Source: Punctularia strigosozonata HHB-11173 SS5 (lineage: Eukaryota; Basidiomycota; Agaricomycetes; Corticiales; Punctulariaceae). From it: a stretch of DNA of 64,000 nucleotides. The notes below the pieces were generated by a model that was given only the letters and a program-made list of their open reading frames with translations, was not told where the DNA came from and did not search any database. Both the position numbers and the translations under genes were made by a program. Shown one piece after another: positions 27,632 through 30,454 of the stretch. The stretch is from contig NW_006767440.1 of assembly GCF_000264995.1 (NCBI RefSeq), positions 395,844 through 459,843 on the forward strand, given 5' to 3'. The first letter of the stretch is position 1; the number at the start of each line of letters is the position of its first letter.

Positions 27632-28409
27632 CTACGAGGAAGGTCTGGTCTGTCGAGGCGGAGACGACGGGGTCTGTAAAGTTGGACCGAACCAGCTCTC
27701 CAAAGCGGCACCTATGCGCATCTTCACGCCTTCCCAGTTATCGAGAGCGGGGCGAACGTCTAGATAGAACGACGGGGCCTGAGCAGGGCCGAGGGACCGA
27801 CCGGTGTAGAAGTCGATGATATATCGCGTTCGGACGCCGCACCGATCCACAAGCCAGTCGTGGCGGTCGAATGGTTTCGTATAGCTATTGCCACACGTTA
27901 GTCGCTCGAGGCCCCTCCAACACCTCGGAAGAGATTGGTGCTTACCCGAGGATGGATTTCCACCGAGCCTTGGGGCTGAGGTCGCCAGGCCGTCCCTTGA
28001 AACTGACCAGTTTGATCCCGCCACAGGCCTCCCCGCCCTTTCCCTGCTCCCACTTCAGTATCTCCTGCCACGCGCGTTCGTTGACGGCGTTGTGTATCGG
28101 CACGATGGTGCGCATATCAGATTCGTGCGGGTTGTGGTTCTTCCTTGCCATCGCCGCAAAAAACTGCGCTTCAGAGGGGTACACCCAGTTCTCGCCCTTC
28201 GCATTCGGGATGGAGGACACCTCTCGAGAATTGGAGAGCGAAGACGGGCCCGGCTCCGGTGCCGGTGCTGGTTTAGAGGACGACGGTTTGTTAAAGGAGA
28301 AGAAGGAGGTCCACGATGATCGAGCGCTATGATCTACTGGACATTCTGCGCTGTTCACCGGCTGCGGCAGCGATCCGTGGTCTACTGGGCATTTTGGTGC
28401 GTCTGCCAT
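27632..28409 (-). CDS. CYC3: Holocytochrome c synthase (cytochrome c haem lyase)
   Basis: Two exons, 28409-27946 and 27884-27632, giving 238 residues. The N-terminal region has two CPVDH motifs (residues 7-11 and 23-27), the haem-regulatory CP motifs typical of this family. The catalytic domain shows WVYPSEAQFFAAMARK, VPIHNAVNERAW (with the haem-ligand His), ILKWE, CGGIKLVSFKGRPGDLSPKAR, FDRHDWLVDRCG and VRTRYIIDFY. The enzyme acts in the mitochondrial intermembrane space and attaches haem covalently to apocytochrome c. The ATG at 28409 is preferred over upstream in-frame codons because conservation starts with the first CP motif. It shares a 245-bp divergent promoter with the nitronate monooxygenase gene. 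Confidence 0.95.
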
Positions 28410-28654
28410 GGCTGCGTTGCGGGCTGAGCAAGAGAGCGGCCGAGCCCGAGGAAGTCGGAAGGGCGCTACCCTCGTGAAGAGGCACGAGAGACAGTGAATA
28501 TGGGCGACAAACCGCGTGACCGGCATAACCGGCGCTCGGTTATTCGTCCACCCGCGTTTTACCCCGCATTCCCTCTTAACCGCAGTTCCAGGGCAGGGAT
28601 AGGGGAACCCAGCGTTTCTCCAGCCCACATCGTTGCTACGAGCGATACGACACC

Positions 28655-30454
28655 ATGCCATCCTCTAATTCCGTTTTCTCCACACCGCTGACCCGCTTGT
28701 TCGGGATCAACCACCCGGTCATGCTGGCTGGTATGAATGTTGCTGCCGGCCCGAGGCTCGCCGCAGCGGTCACCAACGCGGGTAAGTCGACCAATGACTA
28801 CGCTTGCATGCCGGGACGCTGAAAGCGTATCTAGGCGGCATCGGCGTTATAGGCGGCCTGAGGCAAACACCCAAAGTGCTGCAAGAGTCTATCAATGAGA
28901 TCAAGGTTACTAGTTGCCGTATTCTGTTGCAATGGTGGCGCATTAGGCTGATCGGCTACGACAGGCCAATCTTGAGGATAAGAACGCCCCTTTTGGTGTT
29001 GATCTCCTGATACCGCAAGTTGGCGGCAACGCTCGAAAGACCAATGTATGAGTCACGCTACCGAATATCGATGCCCTTCCGCCTAATGTATCGATTCTTG
29101 GGATACTCCTGCAGTATGACTACACAAAAGGGCAGCTTCCTGAACTCACGGACGTTATCATCAAGAACAAGGCTGCGCTGTTTGTTTGCGCCGTGGGTGT
29201 ACCCCCGAAGGAGATGGTCGACAAGCTCCACGCCGCTAAGATCCCGGTCATGAAGTGAGTCTTCTCGGCGTCGATATTCCTCTCACACTTTATTGAAGGA
29301 TGTGTCAGCATGGTAGGACACCCAAAGGTTAGATCTTACCCACTGTGCTTCTATGCACACTTATCGAATCCCGTCGCGCAGCACGTCAAGAAGGCATTAG
29401 ATCAAGGTGGGTAGACCCCTTGAAGCCTAAGTCGCTGAGTTCACGCCTTCATCTCCAGGTGTTGATATCATCTGCGCGCAAGGAGGCGAAGGTGGCGGAC
29501 ATACGGTGAGGGATCAATATCCTGAACCGATTCGATCCTTGACTAATCGCATTTGGCGGCGCCCATCTCACAGGGGTACCGAGGCTTATTGCTGTGTCCA
29601 TGATCAGCACTGACGGCATGGTCTCCCGCACAGTAACATCGCCTTCTCGATCCTCATCCCGGCCTGCGTCGACATTTGCAAAGCGCACAAGTCGCCGCTC
29701 ACGGGCGAGCCCGTGATGGTCATCGCCGCGGGCGGCATCGCCGACGGTCGCGGTCTCGCCGCCGCTCTGTCCTACGGCGCCGCCGGCGTGTGGGTCGGAA
29801 CGCGCTTCGTTGCCAGCGTCGAGGCGGGCGCCCCCAAGATGCACAAAGAGCTCGTGCTTAGCGCGGGGTACGACGACACCGTCAAGACGCTCGTGTATTC
29901 TGGCAGGCCGATGCACGTTCGGAAGACGGCGTATGTGGCGGAGTGGTGAACATTTTCCCTTTCGCATGTATCCTTGGAGTCAACATTGACCGTGATTGCG
30001 TGCGTGATTGAACTATGATAGGGAGGATAAGCGACAGAATGAGATACGCGAGCTGACGTCCAAGGGCAAGATTCCGCACGAGGCGGAGCTCGAGAAGCAT
30101 CCTGAAAGATCTATCGAGGGTCGCATGTGTAAGACCGTGTACGATATCTGTGTTGAGGATGAGAGCACTAAACAAAAAATGTCTTCTTGCAGGGCTCATG
30201 GGACAAGTAGCTGGATCCGTTCATGTGAGTTGCCGTGCTGCACCCCTGTGACAGGAACGCGGACTGACTTGCCACCGCGCGAAAAGGAGGTCAAACCTGC
30301 GAAGGAGATGTGAGCCGATGGTATTATACTTTCGCGGTGAATTGCCGACTGACACCCTCCATAATGCAGCGTCGATGAAATTATAACGACAGCTGCTCAA
30401 AGTTTGCAAGCCGCTGCCAGCCACATTATTAACCCAACGAAAGCTAAACTTTGA
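28655..30454 (+). CDS. Nitronate monooxygenase (2-nitropropane dioxygenase family)
   Basis: Thirteen exons: 28655-28781, 28835-28905, 28965-29045, 29115-29254, 29309-29327, 29382-29406, 29459-29505, 29574-29575, 29634-29945, 30022-30128, 30193-30224, 30287-30309 and 30370-30454, giving 356 residues. The FMN TIM barrel has GINHPVMLAGMN, GGIGVIGG, FGVDLLIPQVGG, AQGGEGGGHTG, VMVIAAGGIADGRGLAAAL and GVWVGTRFVASVE. The family oxidises alkyl nitronates using FMN and O2, detoxifying compounds such as propionate-3-nitronate. No signal peptide is seen. The exon 29574-29575 is only two bases; without it the frame stops at once, and with it the conserved Gly of GHTG is completed. Other small exons are 19, 23, 25 and 32 nt. 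Confidence 0.92.

Follow-up and report, generated by a model that had tools for sequence, protein, structure and literature searches.

The nitronate monooxygenase (NMO) gene carried in the window (the whole stretch of 64,000 nucleotides analysed here, from contig NW_006767440.1 of Punctularia strigosozonata HHB-11173 SS5) probably contains, to judge from the DNA itself, a real and functional coding exon of only two nucleotides. Very likely, this exon (exon 8, GG) is constitutive and is flanked by two ordinary short U2-type introns, which would be recognised by intron definition and removed successively. What was directly established for this explanation comprises the sequence, the reading frame, the ranking of splice models by score and the alignment with a paralogue. 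The gene runs from its start at 28655 to a stop codon ending at 30454 (Table 1). Its coding exons measure 127, 71, 81, 140, 19, 25, 47, 2, 312, 107, 32, 23, and 85 nt, and it is thus rich in very short ones (19, 25, 47, 2, 32, and 23 nt). The last intron (30310-30369) was placed by hand, having been overlooked by the gene finder, which ended the gene at 30313. The predicted product belongs to the NMO family, since it matched the Pfam profile PF03060 with 181.8 bits (E 3.1e-53), above the profile cut-off of 28. Divergently from the NMO gene, a minus-strand frame with two CPVDH motifs (27942-28664) matched cytochrome c heme lyase (PF01265, E 1.3e-24).

Table 1. Coordinates of the NMO gene and of the exons and introns around exon 8 (window positions).
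Feature	Start	End	Strand	Length	Remarks
NMO gene	28655	30454	+		13 coding exons, 12 introns, 356 aa
Exon 7	29459	29505	+	47 nt	ends ...GGGHT, GGA CAT ACG, phase 0
Intron 7	29506	29573	+	68 nt	GTGAGG...CACAG; candidate branch point CTTGAC, A at 29542
Exon 8	29574	29575	+	2 nt	GG, bases 1-2 of Gly codon GG/T
Intron 8	29576	29633	+	58 nt	weak donor GTACCG, acceptor CACAG; candidate branch point ACTGAC, A at 29613
Exon 9	29634	29945	+	312 nt	begins T/AAC ATC GCC = (G)-N-I-A-F-S-I-L-I-P

The site reads ACG/GTGAGG...CACAG/GG/GTACCG...CACAG/TAAC, so that splicing joins ACG-GG-T and yields GHT-G-N-IAFSILIP. Both the coordinates and the letters of two introns separated by only GG, as proposed in the first-pass annotation, were confirmed, and translation bore out its further statements that the GG completes the Gly of the GHTG motif, keeps a 356-residue protein intact, and cannot be skipped without running immediately into a TAA. 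When exon 8 is included, the NMO frame is intact. When 29505 is joined to 29634 instead, translation ends at GHT-stop (170 aa), and a stop is reached after 220 aa if intron 7 is retained, after 179 aa if intron 8 is retained, and after 205 aa if both are. Inclusion of exon 8 is therefore needed for the reading frame, one of the properties by which it was judged as an ultra-small exon.

Exactly these two introns were called by a gene finder self-trained, with no protein input, on codon usage, splice-site and branch-point matrices and intron lengths. The genome sampled comprised about 33.6 Mb in 32 contigs, and the training DNA (the window plus 200 kb from the same genome) yielded 77 genes and 352 introns. 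The matrices were built from the 279 introns having exons of at least 40 nt on both sides, a rule that left introns 7 and 8 outside the splice-site training set; the NMO codons were inside the codon table. Training introns ranged from 45 nt to no more than 122 nt, and many introns in the genes of the sampled genome were around 60 nt long. Of the training introns, 44% have C at donor position +4 and 38% have A, GTRCGT being about as common as GTRAGT.

Splice-site quality was ranked against 275 reference introns outside the NMO gene, which are predictions and not transcript-verified. Intron 7 was average, with its total score at the 48.7th percentile, its donor at the 26.2nd and its acceptor at the 93.5th, and intron 8 was weak (total 7.3rd percentile, donor GTACCG 1.5th, acceptor 30.2nd, branch point 68.4th). 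C was found at donor +5 in 11 of the 352 predicted introns. The description of both introns as textbook thus applied to intron 7 and failed for intron 8. Other introns of the NMO gene also scored under the median. Recognisable spliceosomal introns consequently border exon 8 on both sides, the downstream one weakly.

The gene finder can yield false tiny exons, and its call is by itself no proof of exon 8, because the other two-nucleotide exon that it predicted (AC) sits in a gene for which a Pfam search matched no family. This AC exon (G000:C2:500001-700000, reverse-strand position 96801), which is followed by a weak intron (total -0.37), is probably a false prediction; together with one 3-nt exon, it completes the exons of this size class besides exon 8 among 276 predicted internal exons. 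After simulated deletions of 1-2 nt beside other introns, an exon of no more than 2 nt was invented by the gene finder in 9 of 536 cases. A predicted 12-nt exon was also seen in a predicted HisG (ATP phosphoribosyltransferase) gene (E 1.7e-46) of the same 200-kb stretch, at its reverse-strand positions 164757-165818 (within L028-L047).

A chance control was run on 4000 shuffles, in which the outer six and nine bases were held and the interior was dinucleotide-shuffled. Some frame-preserving two-intron solution arose in 973/4000, and 42/4000 scored at least as high as the real site; 5/4000 did so with a two-nucleotide exon and 2/4000 with a two-nucleotide exon completing the Gly. By score alone, this control reaches only about 1%, which counts against exon 8.

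All models across the site with up to two introns, each of 30-200 nt and bordered by GT/GC-AG or AT-AC, were enumerated. The frame was preserved and free of stops in 28 one-intron and 521 two-intron models, and the two-nucleotide exon scored best of all, at -2.70, the two models ranked after it reaching -6.77 and -7.92. It was the only enumerated model to give GHTG followed directly by NIAFSILIP, and its whole-protein score against the Pfam NMO profile was 181.8 bits versus 180.2 and 173.6 for two rival models. The runner-up at -6.77 loses IAFSILIP. A single conventional intron at the site was rejected: the best of the 28 that keeps GGGHT and IAFSILIP, a GC-AG intron that inserts extra residues and lacks the Gly, scored -9.92.

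The model at -7.92 has a middle exon of 20 nt (29574-29593) and a second intron of 40 nt (29594-29633), and adds six residues (GHTGYRGLLLNIAF). It is in frame and stop-free, and its Pfam NMO score of 180.2 bits is just 1.6 under that of the best model; however, its total falls well behind -2.70, its donor GTGTCC stands at the 0.7th percentile, its 40-nt intron is shorter than all 279 training introns, and the six-residue insertion is absent from the paralogue and from the measurable bacterial stretches (77/80). We therefore consider the 20-nt exon improbable, and the two-nucleotide exon is preferred.

The homologues across the site are consistent with the two-nucleotide exon. The sole close paralogue found in the genome, L025, is identical at 245 of 352 aligned residues (70%), and the alignment is gap-free from residue 6 to about residue 225, which covers the site; the gaps are confined to regions near the ends and to a doubtful six-residue stretch in the automatic L025 model. 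In L025, GGGHTGDI is contiguous, introns 7 and 8 are both absent, and the nearest intron lies five codons upstream. Both paralogues have an intron after V-M-N (window 29255-29308, L025 1176-1238), with borders one base apart (phase 2 versus phase 0); the intron may have moved slightly, or one border may have been called wrongly. Five alignments to PDB sequences (out of 37 sequences matched) were compared, three of them of nearly the same protein, and all five have Gly at this place; four are gap-free at the site and the fifth, 4iql, has a two-residue insertion. The bacterial comparison used 80 loci out of 477 relatives reported, and these 80 were all intronless. The spacing pattern was matched in 77/80 loci and unmatched in 3, with a spacing of 20 residues, as in the window, in 57, of 21 in 13, and of 18 in 7, the last being artificial, since an earlier Pro had ended the match. 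With a stricter pattern, matched in 58/80, Gly was found at this place in 32/58 stretches. The Gly of the motif that had been called conserved is thus common but not invariant: the paralogue and the five PDB alignments share it, and not all the bacterial stretches do. A search for relatives among viral contigs found none.

In the case of an assembly or sequencing error, the true structure would be a single intron of about 128 nt, next to which two exon bases had been lost. The outer sites of a lone intron 29506-29633 are indeed acceptable. Against this, such an intron would exceed all 279 training introns (none longer than 122 nt), an acceptor at the 93.5th percentile and a donor lie inside the 128 nt at precisely the places required, and shuffled sequences equalled the real site by score in only 42/4000 cases. 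We give this error a slim chance. Two ideas on how the intron pair arose were also rejected: that one intron is a recent copy of the other, as their local score of 18.0 was reached in 473/1000 shuffles, and that the pair has a repeated or introner-like origin, as a search of the same genome with the 128-nt stretch (common words skipped) gave no match other than the stretch itself.

Regarding the mechanism, the footprint of U1 pairing at a donor extends from -3 to +6. At intron 8 this footprint would overlap the AG of the intron 7 acceptor by its last G. Because of this overlap the two introns could hardly be recognised together, and they would be removed in succession. Intron 7 would most likely leave first, since its sites are stronger and are transcribed earlier, and intron 8 would follow; on paper, taking out intron 8 first works equally well. 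In vivo, exon 8 would then be spliced in constitutively, with splice sites pairing across each short intron (intron definition). Such pairing has been reported for ascomycetes and fission yeast (PMC6616335). If it operates here, the limit for exon definition, which the first-pass annotation had brought up, would be of little weight.

That annotation had also suggested a recursive splice site; in the strict form of this reading, the GG would act as a ratchet point at which a donor is regenerated. Acceptor and donor do lie 2 nt apart, and the joining of ACG to GG leaves GGG/GTACCG. Yet at a ratchet point AG abuts GT and no bases are kept, whereas here GG stands between them and is kept, and needed, in the product. 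Neither does the first reaction create the second donor, whose bases -3 to +6 read GGG/GTACCG whether intron 7 is still present or already gone; nothing is regenerated, because GTACCG is there in full at the outset and GGG occupies -3 to -1 throughout. Strict recursive splicing is accordingly very hard to credit. Equally remote is a decaying locus in which the fit of the GG is coincidental, as the weak intron 8 donor and the other below-median introns might hint, since the 13 exons together encode an uninterrupted protein of 356 aa with 70% identity (245/352) to the paralogue.

The successive removal of two introns around a constitutive GG exon remains the preferred explanation. A bolder version, which we advance tentatively and regard as rather doubtful, is that of a constitutive two-nucleotide exon in a fungus with an acceptor and a donor sharing bases, a fixed splicing order, and a premature stop after every failure, whether skipping or any retention. 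If this holds, an organism that relies on intron definition would have at this site an inherent check on how faithfully, and in what order, introns are spliced. The gene offers a natural substrate for studying the order of intron removal when splice sites overlap, and it would be broken by annotation tools that impose a minimum exon length. A self-trained gene finder and a paralogue suffice to find exons of this kind in a single genome.

Ultra-small exons are a rare but known oddity, easily overlooked by annotation software, and the literature searched for a two-nucleotide exon gave no clear report of one. The closest likeness is to CYP621A of Fusarium, whose 1-nt exon, inside a Gly codon, was presented as the first such case among fungal genes (PMC12940212). 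Both are fungal enzyme genes with an ultra-small exon of G between AG and GT that gives part of a Gly codon within a conserved motif, and in both the whole interruption is about twice as long as a usual intron; CYP621A differs in its exon of 1 nt, its P450 product and its ascomycete host, and in the 20 orthologues and 18 RNA reads shown for it (PMC12940212). APC11 of Arabidopsis likewise has a constitutive ultra-small exon (1 nt) required for the frame, and its authors favour intron definition with the introns taken out one by one, as proposed here for NMO; it is, however, a plant gene, and its case was proved with GFP fusions (PMC4674806). A 1-nt exon has also been published for plant VPS55, and plant microexons of 1-15 nt (APC11, VPS55) resemble that of NMO in being tiny exons overlooked by annotation, differing from it in their land-plant-wide conservation and RNA-seq support (PMC8831610). 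Stwintrons, like the NMO pair, consist of two closely packed short fungal introns that are excised consecutively, but they leave no exon between their parts, one intron splitting a splicing element of the other, be it donor, branch point or acceptor (PMC6616335). Neither feature applies to NMO, and a stwintron was rejected for it, as exon 7 joined straight to exon 9 runs at once into TAA. Among basidiomycetes, the P450 genes of P. chrysosporium also have very short exons, with introns of 45-55 bp, 6 bp being the shortest exon described in that work (PMC1184071). NMO would thus be the second fungal gene, after Fusarium CYP621A, on a very short list of exons below 3 nt, in an unrelated enzyme and, as in CYP621A, with the exon once more part of a Gly codon and G-rich splice sites on either side.
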